From Pseudonocardia sp. SCN 73-27 (GTDB lineage Bacteria; Actinomycetota; Actinomycetes; Mycobacteriales; Pseudonocardiaceae), in assembly GCA_001725415.1 (NCBI GenBank), contig MEGH01000015.1, positions 1 through 64,000 on the forward strand: 64,000 bases of DNA, given 5' to 3'. Numbering within the stretch: the stretch's first letter is position 1; each line of letters opens with the position of its first letter. The notes below the pieces were generated by a model that was not told the origin of the DNA, searched no databases, and saw nothing but the letters and a program-made list of their open reading frames with translations. A program made the translations under genes and the position numbers. Shown one piece after another: positions 3,688 through 63,695 of the stretch.

Positions 3688-6558
<2,871 letters not shown>

Positions 6559-56983: not shown

Positions 56984-57007
56984 CAGACGAGGGCGCTGAG
57001 CACCCTC

Positions 57008-57954
57008 CTACAGGTTCTGCACGTGTTGGAACCCGAAGCGCCCCTTCACGCACAGGTGCCCATGGGTCACCGAGTGGTCCGACGGTGAGGTGACGTTGAC
57101 GATCGAGTTGTTCTGCACGTGCAGCTCCAGGTTGCAGCCGACGCCGCAGAACGAGCAGATCGTCGTCGTGACCGTCTCCTCCTCGGGGTGCCAGTCGCCG
57201 TCCTCGCGCAGCTCGTGCTCGCGGACCGACTTGAGCGCCCCCGTCGGGCACACCCCGATGCAGTTGCCGCAGTAGACGCAGGCGGAGTCGGGCAGCTCGG
57301 CGTCGTACTCGGTGGCGATGCGGGCGTCGAACCCGCGGCCGGCGGCGGCGATGGCGAAGGTGAACTGGGCGTCGGTGCCGCAGGCCTTCACGCACTTGTA
57401 GCAGAGGATGCAGCGCGAGTAGTCGCGCACGTAGAGGTCGTTGTCGATCTTCACGGGCTGGGCGACGGTCTCGGCGTGCGACCCGTCGGGGGCGTGATGG
57501 TGCCCGGCGTGGCGGCGGTCGCGCTCCCCCTCCGCGGCAGGGGCTGCGGGCGGGCCGTAGCGGTCGGCGTCGACCCCGTACTCCGTCATCCAGCGGGCCA
57601 CGTCGTCGCCGGCCTGGCTCATGTCGACCGACGACGCCAGCAGCTCCAGCACCATCTTCCGGGAGTGCCGGACCTTCTCCGAGTCGGTGCGCACCACCAT
57701 GTCGTCCTCGACCTTGCGGGCGCACGAGGGCACGAGCACGCGCGAGCCCTCGACCTCGACGACGCACACCCGGCACGCGTTGATCGGCGCGAGGTTGGGT
57801 GCCCAGCACAACGTGGGGGTGTCGGCCTGCTCGGGCGTGCCCTGTTCGTGAAGGGCCTGCAGGATCGTCGAGCCCTCGGGGACGCGGACCTCGCGGCCGT
57901 CGACGGTCAGGGTGACGACGCGCTTGATCTCGCCGAGCATCACCGGCGCGGATG

Positions 57955-57958
<4 letters not shown>
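57008..57958 (-). CDS. Formate dehydrogenase iron-sulfur subunit with transplanted [4Fe-4S] Mo-subunit domain
   Basis: This 316-residue protein has three parts: an N-terminal [2Fe-2S] ferredoxin (TLCWAPN, INACRVCVVEVEG, PSCARK), a double [4Fe-4S] domain (CILCYKCVKACG and CVYCGNCIGVCP), and a C-terminal ~55 residues (TICSFCGVGCNLELHV and HLCVKGRFGF) that are the [4Fe-4S] domain normally found at the N-terminus of the molybdopterin subunit. A His-rich stretch (RHAGHHHAPDGSH) lies in the middle. The chain stops right where the Mo domain would begin. ATG at 57958 overlaps the NuoEF-type gene by 4 bases. It probably wires electrons from the Mo site to the FMN subunit. Cytosolic; no Tat signal. Confidence 0.9.
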
Positions 57959-59835
<1,877 letters not shown>

Positions 59836-59847
59836 GTGCCTCCCTAC

Positions 59848-61779
59848 TCAGCCTCCGGCGGCGGGCAGCCGAGGCTCCCCCGAGTCCGCCAGCTTCTCGA
59901 TCCGGATCGCGGTCGCCTTGAACTCCGACGTCCCCGACTTGGGGTCCCACGCGTCGTTGGTCAACACGTTCGTGTCGACCTCCTCGGAGAAGTGTGGGGT
60001 GAACGAGGCCAGCCCGGGCCGCAGCGACGGGTCCAGCGCCACCGGCGCCTCGACCGCACCACGCCGCGACACCACGCGGACCTTCTCGCCGTCGACGATC
60101 CCGAGCCGCTCGGCGTCGTCGAAGTCCATCCGCAGCGACTCCCGGCGGCGCATCGGCGACGAGTAGCCGCCGGTCTGGACACCCGAGTTGTAGGCGTCGA
60201 GCAGCCGGACCGTCGTCAGCCGGATCGGGAACTCCTCGTCGAGCGCGTCGACGGGCGGCACGTGCTCGACCGGTGTGAACGGTGCGGGCGTCCCGATCTC
60301 GGCCGGGTCGTCGGCCCACAGCCGGGCGTGCATCAGCGGCGTGCCCGGGTGGTCCTCGGTCGGGCACGGCCACTGCAGGCCACCCAGCTCGTCGAGGCGG
60401 GCGTAGCTCATGCCGTGGTGCCAGTTCAGCGACAGCGACCGCAGCTCGTCCCACACCTGCTCGGCCGTCGGCCGGCCCCAGTCGTGGCCGAGGCGTTCGG
60501 CGACCGCGCAGATGATGTGCGTGTCCGGCCACGCCTGCCCCGGCGGGTCGATGGCCTTGCGGACCCGCTGCACCCGCCGCTCGCTGTTGGTGACGGTGCC
60601 CTCGTACTCGCACCAGTCCGCCGCCGCCGGCAGCACGACGTCGGCCAGGTCGGCCGTCGCCGTGCGGAAGATGTCCTGCACCACCAGGTGGTCGAGGCCC
60701 TCCAGCATGTGCCGGGCGTGCGTGGCGTTGGCCTCCGACTCCGCCGGGTTCTCCCCGATGCAGTACAGCGCCGTGAGCGTGCCGGCCTCCATCGCCTCGA
60801 ACATCTGCGACAGGTGCATGCCCGCCTTCGGCGAGACCGGAGCGCCCCACGTCGTCTCGAACCGGGCGCGGGCCTCGTCGTCGCCCAGGTCGTAGCCGCC
60901 GGGCAGCTTGGCCGGGATCGAGCCCATGTCGCCGCCGCCCTGCACGTTGTTCTGTCCGCGCAGCGGGACCAGGCCCGACCCGTAGCGGCCGACGTGCCCC
61001 GTCAGCAGCGCCAGGTTGATCAGCGCGAACACGTAGTCGGCGGCGTTGTGGTGCTCGGTGATGCCGAGCGTCCAGCAGATCTGGGCGCGGTCGGCCCGGG
61101 CGTAGGCGTGCGCCAGCTCCTTGATCAGGGCCGCGTCCACACCCGTGATCTCGGCCGCCCGCTCCAGTGTGTACGGCTCCACCGACTCCGCGTAGTCGGC
61201 GTACCCCGTGGTCGCGCGGTCGACGAACGTGTGGTTCACCAGGTCGGAGTGGATGATCTCCCGGGCGATGGCGTTGGCCAGCGCGATGTCGGTACCGACG
61301 TCGAGGCCCAGCCAGCCGTCGGCCCAGCGGGCGGTGGAGGTGCGCCGCGGGTCGACGGAGTACATGCGCGTGCCCTTGCGCAGCCCCTGCAGGACGTGGT
61401 GGAAGAAGATCGGATGGGTCTCACGCGCGTTGGAGCCCCACAGGACGAGAAGGTCGGCGTCTTCCGCCTCGACATAGGCGGAGGTGCCGCCGCCGGCACC
61501 GAACACTGCCGTCAGACCGACGACGCTGGGAGCGTGTCAAGTCCTGTTGCAGGAGTCGACGTTGTTGCTCCCCATCACCACCCGGGAGAACTTCTGGGCG
61601 GTGTAGTTCATCTCGTTCGTGGCCTTCGAGCAGCTGAACATGCCGAACTCGTCGCCGCTGCGGCCCCGGAACCCGGCGGCCGCGCGGTCGAGGGCCTCGT
61701 CCCACGTGGCGGGTCGCAGCACCCCGTTCTCACGCACCAGTGGCTCGGTGATCCTGACGTGCCGGGGACGGCGGGGCAT
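59848..61779 (-). CDS. fdhA: Selenocysteine-containing formate dehydrogenase molybdopterin subunit
   Basis: This 643-residue catalytic subunit reads through an in-frame TGA (61539-61537) as Sec81. The context [19 protein letters not shown] matches active-site Sec segments such as that of E. coli FdhF. Before it: [13 protein letters not shown], then [10 protein letters not shown] and MGSNN. After it: [64 protein letters not shown] (landmark only), GLPL-like [13 protein letters not shown] and C-terminal molybdopterin-binding part with SRRGAV. The [4Fe-4S] domain is missing from the N-terminus and lies on the neighbouring gene product. ATG at 61779 with GGAGG nearby. Without Sec, two fragments result. 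SECIS-like hairpin at 61508-61524. Selenocysteine machinery genes are not in the window. Confidence 0.92.
61508..61539 (-). promoter_or_regulatory. UGA codon and SECIS-like hairpin of fdhA
   Basis: On the minus strand, UGA (61539-61537) is followed by 12 bases and then GUCGUC-GGUCU-GACGGC (61524-61508): a 6-bp stem (one G-U) with loop GGUCU. Loop sequence and distance are like the E. coli fdhF SECIS upper stem (GGUCU loop), which recruits SelB. The match is within coding sequence, as required in bacteria. Confidence 0.8.
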
Positions 61780-61838
61780 CGGTCCTCCACGGGTCGTCGA
61801 CGTCGACCCGTCCACGATATGCCCGCCCGCGTCGTCCG

Positions 61839-62708
61839 TCAGGTCCGGCGGGACGCTGTGTCTCCTGCGACCACCCCTGCCGGGCCCGGGGTGACCCGCA
61901 CGGCGAGGACGTCGCCGGGCACGAGCGGGATGGCGGGATCGACGGCGTCGACGGCCCCGGCCAGCACGATCCGTGCCGCCGGGCCGTGCCGGGCCGCGAG
62001 CAGGGCGGTGGCCTCGCCGAGGGTGCGGGCGGCCACCGGTGGGCCCTCCGCGACGGCGACCTGCGGTGCGGGCCGGGCGCGCACCGCGGCCAGCTCGTCG
62101 GGGGTGTTGACGCCCCGCAGCGAGTCGATCTGCGGGTCCACCCGGGCGAGCTCGGCGCCCGCCAGCAGCTCCTCCTCGTCGGGGCGCACCACCCGGCACC
62201 GGGTGAACAGCTCCGGCGGGCGGCGCACACCCTCGCTCACCAGGCTCGTGACCAGTGGGGACAGCGACACCCGGTAGGCGGCGGCGAGCGGTTGCGGGAA
62301 GTCGTGGACCTGAGGGACGACGACGTCTGCGTCCTCGTCCAGCATCGCCAGCACCCGACGGACGTAGGCGGGATGCAGCAGCGGCAGGTCCGTGGCGGTC
62401 ACGAACGCCGCCCCCGCCCGGCCCGCGACGGCCTCCAGGCCGACCGCGATGCCCTGCAACGGACCCCGCCCTTCGACGGGGTCGTCGACCACCTCGACCC
62501 GCGCCGGCAACGGCGGCAGCCCCTGCCCGGGGGCGCGCACGACCACGACCGGCCCGTCGACCGCCCGGCCCACCAGCCCGGCCACCCGGGCCAGCAGCGG
62601 CACGCCGAACCAGTCCAGCGCGGCCTTCGACGTCCCCATCCGCGACGACCGGCCCCCGGCCAGGACGATCCCCGCGGCCCGCGCGGTCCCCGACAGCCCG
62701 CTCCTCAT
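61839..62708 (-). CDS. mobA: Molybdenum cofactor guanylyltransferase MobA with C-terminal extension
   Basis: This 289-residue protein transfers GMP to molybdopterin to make the bis-MGD cofactor used by formate dehydrogenase. The N-terminal ~195 residues are Mob[20 protein letters not shown] (nucleotide-binding loop), [25 protein letters not shown] and VNTPDEL. The last ~80 residues ([29 protein letters not shown]) look like a MoaD/ThiS-type beta-grasp domain without the terminal Gly-Gly; this is a guess. ATG at 62708. It is the first gene of the fdh unit (59 bp before fdhA) and divergent from fdhD. Confidence 0.9.
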
Positions 62709-62733
62709 GGGCGGCGATGCTACGACCGCGTGC

Positions 62734-62789
62734 CGAGATGCACCTCGGCGCGGTCCGCCCGCTCCGTGGCGACCCCGATGTGCATCTCG
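62734..62789. promoter_or_regulatory. Long-spaced inverted repeat in the mobA-fdhD divergent region
   Basis: CGAGATGCAC (62734-62743) and GTGCATCTCG (62780-62789) are perfect complements with a 36-base spacer. Extending to 15 bases, CGAGATGCAC-[C/A]-TCGG, only one base differs. Two inverted copies of a motif placed between divergent genes suggest binding sites of one regulator controlling the formate dehydrogenase and fdhD. Confidence 0.5.
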
Positions 62790-62817
62790 CCGTCCGGTCA
62801 GGCCGCCCGCCCGGCCG

Positions 62818-62823
62818 TATCCT
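62818..62823 (+). promoter_or_regulatory. Candidate -10 element of fdhD
   Basis: TATCCT at 62818-62823 fits a housekeeping -10 hexamer and lies ~45 bases upstream of the fdhD start. The matching -35 region (62795-62800, CGGTCA) is poor, as expected if the promoter needs an activator. The inverted repeat 62734-62789 lies just upstream. Confidence 0.35.
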
Positions 62824-62867
62824 GGAGACCGGCGCGACCGACGTCGGTGCGCCGGACAGGAGTGGAC

Positions 62868-63695
62868 ATGGGCCGGGTCACGGTGCGACGTCCGGTGCTG
62901 CGGCTCGGGCCCGGCGGGCAGGAGCGCCGCCGCCCCGACGCGCTCGCCGCCGAGGAGCCGCTGGAGATCCGCGTCGACGGCAAGCCGCTGTCGGTCACGA
63001 TGCGCACCCCGGGCCACGACGTCGAGCTCGCCCACGGCTTCCTGCTCACCGAGGGCGTCATCGGCTCCTCCGAGGACCTGCTGTCCGCCCGCTACTGCGA
63101 CTCCCTCGACGACCAGGGCCGCAACACCTACAACGTCCTCGACATCACGCTGGCCCCCGGCGTCGAGCCGCCGGACACCTCGCTGGAACGCAACTTCTAC
63201 ACGACGTCGTCGTGCGGGGTGTGCGGCAAGGCGTCGCTGGACGCGGTGAAGCTCAAGTCCCGGTTCTCCCCCGCCGGCGACCCGGTCCGGGTGCACTACC
63301 GCACGATCGTCGGGCTGCCCGACGCGCTGCGCGAGGCGCAGAAGGTGTTCTCCTCCACCGGCGGGCTGCACGGCGCCGCGCTGTTCACCGCCGACGGCGA
63401 GCTGATCGTCGCCCGCGAGGACGTGGGCCGGCACAACGCCGTCGACAAGGCACTCGGGCGCTGCCTGCTCGACGGCCGCATCCCCGCCGCGGGCACCGTG
63501 CTGATGGTGTCGGGGCGGGCGTCGTTCGAGCTGGTGCAGAAGGCCGTCATGGCCGGGGTGCCGATGATGACGGCGGTGTCGGCGCCCTCGTCGCTGGCGG
63601 TGGAGCTGGCCGCCGAGGCCGGGATGACGCTGGTCGGGTTCCTGCGCGGCGAGACGATGAACGTCTACGCGGGTTCCGAGCGGATCGACCGGTGA
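62868..63695 (+). CDS. fdhD: Formate dehydrogenase accessory sulfurtransferase FdhD
   Basis: This 275-residue protein carries sulfur from a cysteine desulfurase to the Mo centre, needed for activity of bis-MGD formate dehydrogenases. Landmarks: [29 protein letters not shown], the sulfur-carrier loop [10 protein letters not shown] with two cysteines, [27 protein letters not shown] and [15 protein letters not shown] at 62868, with AGGAG upstream. It is divergent from mobA and overlaps the VOC gene that follows (GTGA). Confidence 0.97.

Follow-up and report, generated by a model that had tools for sequence, protein, structure and literature searches.

A cluster of genes for a predicted formate dehydrogenase lies between positions 57008 and 63695 of the window, by which we mean the whole 64,000-nucleotide stretch of Pseudonocardia sp. 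SCN 73-27 DNA that was analysed. Its features, with the evidence for each, are the following.

57008..57958, minus strand: fdhC, a HoxU/NuoG-N-like ferredoxin subunit of 316 residues with a Molybdop_Fe4S4 domain at its C-terminal end (Pfam Fer2_4, Fer4, and Molybdop_Fe4S4 at 262-315)
57955..59835, minus strand: fdhB, a NuoE-NuoF fusion (NADH-binding / FMN diaphorase subunit) of 626 residues (Pfam 2Fe-2S_thioredx, Complex1_51K, SLBB, NADH_4Fe-4S)
59848..61779, minus strand: fdhA, the predicted Sec-containing catalytic part of a formate dehydrogenase alpha subunit, 643 residues, without an Fe4S4 domain of its own (Pfam Molybdopterin and Molydop_binding; TIGR01591 positions 52-672 of 672; FdhF and FdsA chains in PDB)
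61508..61524, minus strand: putative apical hairpin of a bacterial SECIS, GUCGUC-GGUCU-GACGGC (conservation, pairing, apical folding)
61537..61539, minus strand: UGA predicted to be read as selenocysteine (Sec), residue 81 (aligned structures; the codon in 126 aligned sequences)
61839..62690, minus strand: MobA-like gene (NTP transferase domain) upstream of fdhA, start approximate (Pfam NTP_transf_3)
62838..63695, plus strand: fdhD, divergent, formate dehydrogenase accessory sulfurtransferase, start approximate (Pfam FdhD-NarQ, E 1.4e-71)

The order of transcription is fdhA, fdhB, fdhC, with 12 bases between the first two genes and an overlap of 4 between the last two. The ATG of fdhA at 61779 is preceded by GGAGG, 4 bases away. 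A preliminary description of this DNA had proposed that two minus-strand pieces are one frame broken only by a TGA at 61537-61539, and the translation bears this out: 61779-59848 reads as a single frame of 643 residues, interrupted by no stop but U81 before its terminal TGA. The internal TGA (61539-61537) is flanked by AACAGGACT and CACGCTCCC; the residues are VDSCNRT before and HAPSVVGL after, as had been claimed, and the codon sits in an active-site motif of the FdhF type.

The internal UGA and its relatives

The best structure matches of FdhA are the HDCR subunit FdhF (7qv7, E 1e-139), an F420 formate dehydrogenase (9t1s), a formate dehydrogenase (7bkb) and E. coli FdhH (1aa6). In five structure alignments residue 81 stands opposite X in 1aa6 and 9t1s, a modified residue that we take to be Sec, and opposite Cys in the other three. 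E. coli FdhF (FDH-H; 1aa6, 1fdo) shares the active-site motif, with its X aligned to residue 81. The alignment begins at FdhF residue 61; unlike FdhA, the E. coli protein carries its own Fe4S4 domain.

The codon was then followed through relatives. Among the best 80 of 426 relatives, where the nearest named one is Pseudonocardia sulfidoxydans (94% identity in FdhA), 79 loci reach residue 81, L061 stopping short of it and so falling outside the count; 78 of the 79 have TGA and one, from Actinoallomurus (L095), has TGC. Adding the window and 46 loci taken from whole genomes to these 79 gives 126 aligned sequences, of which 112 have TGA and 14 have TGC or TGT. Two copies of the window locus (L023 and L105) were excluded from the codon and SECIS comparison, and the removal of 24 of the 112 TGA rows that are identical around the codon leaves 88 distinct UGA sequences (the window and 87 relatives) to be set against the 14 Cys orthologues (L095, L145-L151 and L154-L159). 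An in-frame UGA where homologues have Sec or Cys, one mark of a selenoprotein, is therefore present in fdhA.

Were the TGA a true stop, the locus would hold a pseudogene or two genes, with a downstream ORF of 552 residues from the GTG at 61506 as the product. The list of open reading frames does show two pieces, as a mechanical annotation would, and the downstream one has a GTG of its own. But 87 distinct relatives have the same TGA, followed by a frame that can be aligned, the 14 exceptions have a Cys codon, and a start at 61506 would drop residue 81 together with the catalytic motif. With the full Sec machinery also present in the genome (below), we consider a true stop very improbable.

The hairpin downstream of the UGA and the selenocysteine machinery

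A SECIS-like GGUCU hairpin after the UGA had also been described, and comparison confirms it. The loop (61518-61514) lies 18 nt past the UGA, between stem arms GUCGUC (61524-61519) and GACGGC (61513-61508); the loop of E. coli fdhF is likewise GGUCU, 18 nt after its UGA. GGT-CTG occupies this offset in all 88 distinct UGA sequences, and GGT is there in 0/14 of the Cys orthologues. The GGUCU pentamer with a 6-bp stem shows the same division (88/88 vs 0/14), and standard pairs fill 528/528 stem cells in the UGA group vs 50/84 in the Cys group (summed counts). Within the UGA group one pair varies among U-A, U-G and C-G, and another between U-A and U-G. At other glycine codons of the same genes the mean share of GGT is 9.4% in the UGA group and 7.8% in the Cys group. 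GGUCU at a fixed offset is more than chance. The sequences are related, so the counts within each group are interdependent, although the contrast between the groups is complete; and since the stem overlaps coding sequence, constraint on the protein accounts for part of its conservation. The predicted SECIS is, on these comparisons, under constraint, and it lies where a bacterial selenoprotein would have it, just 3' of the UGA and inside the coding region, as judged by conservation and pairing. GGT-CTG 18 nt after the codon is also a simple marker: it told the 88 Sec and 14 Cys orthologues examined apart without exception.

Folding energy is not informative here. No excess of folding stability was found for the 59-nt and 39-nt SECIS stretches (z +0.42 and -0.46); the 20-nt apical hairpin has z -2.39. 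A Cys orthologue used as a control (L145) adopts a different and more stable fold than the UGA form (-21.4 kcal/mol, z -2.38), and the z values of two further UGA genes from this genome are -1.24 and +0.15, so that folding energy is not diagnostic of a SECIS. A covariance search had been suggested; the Rfam scan of 57000-63000 (E up to 10) gave 4 weak matches, with no SECIS family among them.

The hairpin bears on two further readings of the TGA. In favour of a sequencing or assembly error for TGC is that a single base change turns TGA into a Cys codon; against it, the TGA stands in 112 of the 126 sequences, from many assemblies, and the loop accompanies the codon in one group and is missing from the other to the last sequence. 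The chance of such an error is negligible. The TGA could also be read as something other than Sec, by near-cognate suppression or through a reassigned code, a reading for which no support turned up. The terminal stop of fdhA is itself TGA, and the codon is therefore not reassigned throughout; the SECIS appears constrained and a tRNA-Sec with the anticodon TCA is present, which leaves this reading with very little probability. The codon alignment, the tRNA-Sec and the conserved GGUCU hairpin are the grounds for rejecting sequencing error, a true stop and code reassignment.

The absence of selA, selB, selD and tRNA-Sec from the genome would have told against a selenoprotein. The genome assembly is of 6.95 Mb in 99 contigs (completeness 99.99, contamination 4.16), and all four are present, together on contig C45 within 8 kb (84217 to about 91577); with selC as the tRNA gene, the complete set of selA, selB, selC and selD is accounted for. 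A tRNA scan of the window gave tRNA-Gly only, with no tRNA-Sec there.

Contig C45: selA, directly before selB (403 bits, above cut-off)
Contig C45: selB (257 bits, above cut-off)
Contig C45: selD (395 bits, above cut-off), motif GGGCACKL, i.e. with Cys
Contig C45: tRNA-Sec (68.4 bits, above cut-off; ARAGORN tRNA-SeC, anticodon TCA)

A search of the 6.95 Mb for the pattern TGACAY-N15-GGTCTG gave three occurrences, in the window and on contigs C12 and C20, each time in a formate dehydrogenase gene; read backwards as a control, the pattern gave 0. As the pattern is strict, other selenoproteins of this genome could be missed.

Contig C12, at 1210-1236 of locus L142, plus strand: predicted FDH-N-type formate dehydrogenase with in-frame TGA and GGTCT loop
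Contig C20, at 4619-4645 of locus L143, minus strand: predicted FDH-N-type formate dehydrogenase with in-frame TGA and GGTCT loop

Read through their TGA, in the context QARI-U-HSATVPGL, these two genes score above the cut-offs of TIGR01553 (formate dehydrogenase-N alpha) and of NF041513, an NCBIfam model for actinobacterial formate dehydrogenase. The genome has, by this prediction, three Sec formate dehydrogenases, the window gene included.

Taken with the conserved UGA and hairpin, the Sec genes strongly support the main claim of the preliminary description, a formate dehydrogenase that is a UGA-encoded selenoprotein. The internal UGA of fdhA is almost certainly a selenocysteine codon, and very probably this actinobacterium makes a Sec-carrying, formate-oxidising enzyme from it. 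A Pseudonocardia-like genome thereby gains a well-supported selenoprotein and the complete Sec system that goes with it; that it has such a protein is expected biology. The further remark that selenoproteins are uncommon in actinobacteria is not supported. Sec is no rarity in this group, since 271 of 390 genomes of the family carry tRNA-Sec and 265 carry selA. Actinobacterial Sec formate dehydrogenases are already in print, and the one described here therefore belongs to a known kind: by published accounts, Corynebacterium aurimucosum has such an enzyme and selABCD (PMC2830990), Amycolatopsis mediterranei has a formate dehydrogenase with a UGA codon (PMC4048454), and Actinobacteria are among three phyla rich in selenoprotein families (PMC1794560).

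Within the family the UGA form keeps close company with the machinery. Among the matches listed, genomes with a UGA orthologue were tallied by hand (identity 73% or more, plus two at 65%) and number 53, the codon having been read in 34 and the other 19 assigned by stop count. tRNA-Sec is found in 52/53 of them vs 219/337 of the others (one-sided Fisher p 2e-8, on hand tallies and uncorrected for kinship); the single exception, G320, is 72% complete. selA is found in 50/53, with none found in G036, G315 and G320. Genomes with a stop-free orthologue at 61-65% identity have tRNA-Sec in 29/53 cases (hand tally), and the machinery thus accompanies the UGA form with fewer exceptions than it does the Cys form. 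Left out of the UGA tally were five rows at 62-63% identity that have a single TGA (G141, G150, G154, G160 and G161); four comparable rows (G101, G115, G124 and G163) have Cys codons. Two TGA fall within the aligned stretch in G280, G281, G270, G303 and G308.

An alpha subunit in two parts

The catalytic subunit is the part of the preliminary description that needs amending. That FdhA is the catalytic part, with the Sec site, stands; it is not the whole subunit, TIGR01591 positions 1-49 being on the separate protein of 57008-57958. The Molybdop_Fe4S4 domain, which in other formate dehydrogenases is part of the catalytic chain, lies within the last 55 residues of FdhC. Against TIGR01591 (Fdh-alpha, 672 positions) the C terminus of FdhC matches 1-49 and FdhA matches 52-672; against 6tg9, the FdsA chain of the NAD-dependent formate dehydrogenase from Rhodobacter capsulatus, FdhC covers residues 25-302 and FdhA 307-932. 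Because the two proteins match adjacent parts of both, the alpha subunit is cut in two at this point. FdhA alone scores 607.7 bits, below the curated cut-off of 666.25 for TIGR01591. By these matches FdhA and FdhC are a split form and not a standard single-chain member of Fdh-alpha.

The genes for the two parts stand in the reverse of the protein order, one on either side of fdhB. FdsA has the same domain set in a single chain; here it is divided over two, with the C-terminal part encoded first, then NuoEF, then the N-terminal part, and residue 81 is predicted to be Sec. As in enzymes of the FdsABG type, the catalytic, 2Fe-2S/4Fe-4S and NuoEF-type parts are encoded together; the catalytic chain has no Fe4S4 domain, which is on FdhC.

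The arrangement is a general one among the relatives. Upstream of fdhA, the best 80 of 426 relatives gave no match to Fe4S4 at E up to 1e-5, L060 and L061 having almost no sequence there. In 70 of these 80 loci fdhC lies downstream on the same strand, and the other 10 end less than 1.6 kb after fdhA. Over all 129 rows the order is A-B-N in 87/87 of those with the three genes, the window being counted twice (86 without the second copy) and at least one genome probably being doubled (L064 and L161). The remaining 42 rows are without fdhB or fdhC on the fdhA strand: the 10 loci that end early, 30 short-flank loci (L105, L113-L141), and L152 and L153. In 82/82 rows (window twice) FdhC keeps its four Fe4S4 cysteines and its CxKGR motif unchanged, and all 14 Cys orthologues are likewise split. 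On this evidence the split alpha subunit and the permuted gene order are properties of the clade.

In two genomes, G203 (L152) and G204 (L153), fdhA stands apart from fdhB and fdhC; the fdhA of L152 adjoins an MFS transporter gene and a 366-residue ORF. Such a separation would suit a split without structural meaning, in which FdhA functions without the Fe4S4 domain of FdhC. In both genomes, however, the contig that bears fdhA also encodes, some 14-16 kb away from it, an FdhC with 62-63% identity, and this argues against it, as do the invariant Fe4S4 cysteines; we regard an FdhA independent of FdhC as unlikely.

What the sequence shows directly is the UGA with its conserved SECIS, the machinery for Sec, the division of the domains and the order of the genes; Sec insertion, subunit assembly, the choice of Mo or W, and NAD as the acceptor are inferred. 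We put at about 0.96 the probability that the locus specifies a cytoplasmic, probably NAD-reducing, metal-dependent formate dehydrogenase with a catalytic Sec encoded by UGA and SECIS, an Fe4S4 domain supplied by FdhC, and a path through FdhB to NAD. A ribosome on fdhA mRNA would meet the UGA at 61537-61539; SelB with Sec-tRNA-Sec would bind the GGUCU hairpin just downstream and insert Sec, giving the 643-residue protein. FdhA would join FdhC, which would provide the [4Fe-4S] domain and the conserved Cys-x-Lys-Gly-Arg segment that are usually fused to the catalytic chain. Electrons would pass from formate through the clusters of FdhC and the NuoEF-like FdhB to NAD, and FdhD and the MobA-like protein, encoded alongside, would mature the bis-MGD cofactor.

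The split of the catalytic subunit is the less expected part of these results, Sec formate dehydrogenases being already known. With separate chains to mix, the role of the Mo-proximal cluster would become open to study.

Published counterparts and cysteine forms

The closest counterpart in print is FDH3 (FdhA3/FdhB3/FdhC3) of Actinomycetospora chiangmaiensis DSM 45062, a cytoplasmic Sec formate dehydrogenase of three subunits, as the present enzyme is predicted to be; they have 640, 614 and 316 residues there and 643, 626 and 316 here, and the match rests on the number and lengths of the subunits and on other Actinomycetospora loci (PMC7176365). That strain has two further Sec formate dehydrogenases, membrane-bound, where the present genome has two further ones of predicted FDH-N type, so that both total three (PMC7176365). 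According to the same report, FDH3 was detected by proteomics, with FdhA3 listed as a detected protein of 640 residues, and removal of formate required selenite, a dependence that belongs to the whole strain with its three Sec formate dehydrogenases (PMC7176365). Actinomycetospora is a sister genus, and it is to that strain that the proteomics and the selenium dependence belong.

The published lengths of the FDH3 subunits imply that its alpha subunit is split (PMC7176365), and the terms iron-sulfur and 4Fe-4S have 0 occurrences in the main text of that paper. No discussion of a split alpha subunit was found in the open literature searched, nor was anything on it found in the available parts of PMC7325909 and PMC13397495.

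The 14 Cys orthologues allow some history to be read. Of the 13 Cys genomes picked from the family, 11 have tRNA-Sec (G252 and G382 have none listed), so a change of Sec to Cys can take place with the machinery kept. A tree was built by a quick method from 78 FdhA sequences: 63 UGA rows chosen by hand from the 88 distinct ones, the 14 Cys sequences and one long-branch outgroup. Of its 75 inner branches 27 are weak. The Cys sequences fall in two places inside UGA groups; the fewest changes needed are 2, against a mean of 13.1 on shuffling, and 0/500 shuffles went as low. This fits a loss of Sec in two actinobacterial lineages, the strong branches forcing only one change.

A broader reading is likely for a whole clade of formate dehydrogenases, which takes in Actinomycetota and bins labelled Chloroflexota, Acidobacteriota, Gemmatimonadota, Planctomycetota and others (for the distant relatives the phylum is the one given in the record title, in most cases that of a metagenome bin). 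Its catalytic subunit would be cut between the Fe4S4 and molybdopterin domains and its gene order permuted, and the cluster proximal to the active site and the CxKGR lysine would thus come from another polypeptide. Sec would be the older state as sampled, with two lineages later changing Sec to Cys and losing the SECIS.

A cysteine enzyme is found in the genome itself. The paralogue at 8532-10400 of contig C59 (L144) is FdsA-like and lies beside NuoF-like and NuoE-like stretches; it has TGC, not TGA, shares 35% identity, and a single open stretch of 920 residues contains its 2Fe-2S, Fe4S4 and molybdopterin domains. As this fused formate dehydrogenase is of the Cys type, it may serve as a selenium-independent backup to the Sec forms.
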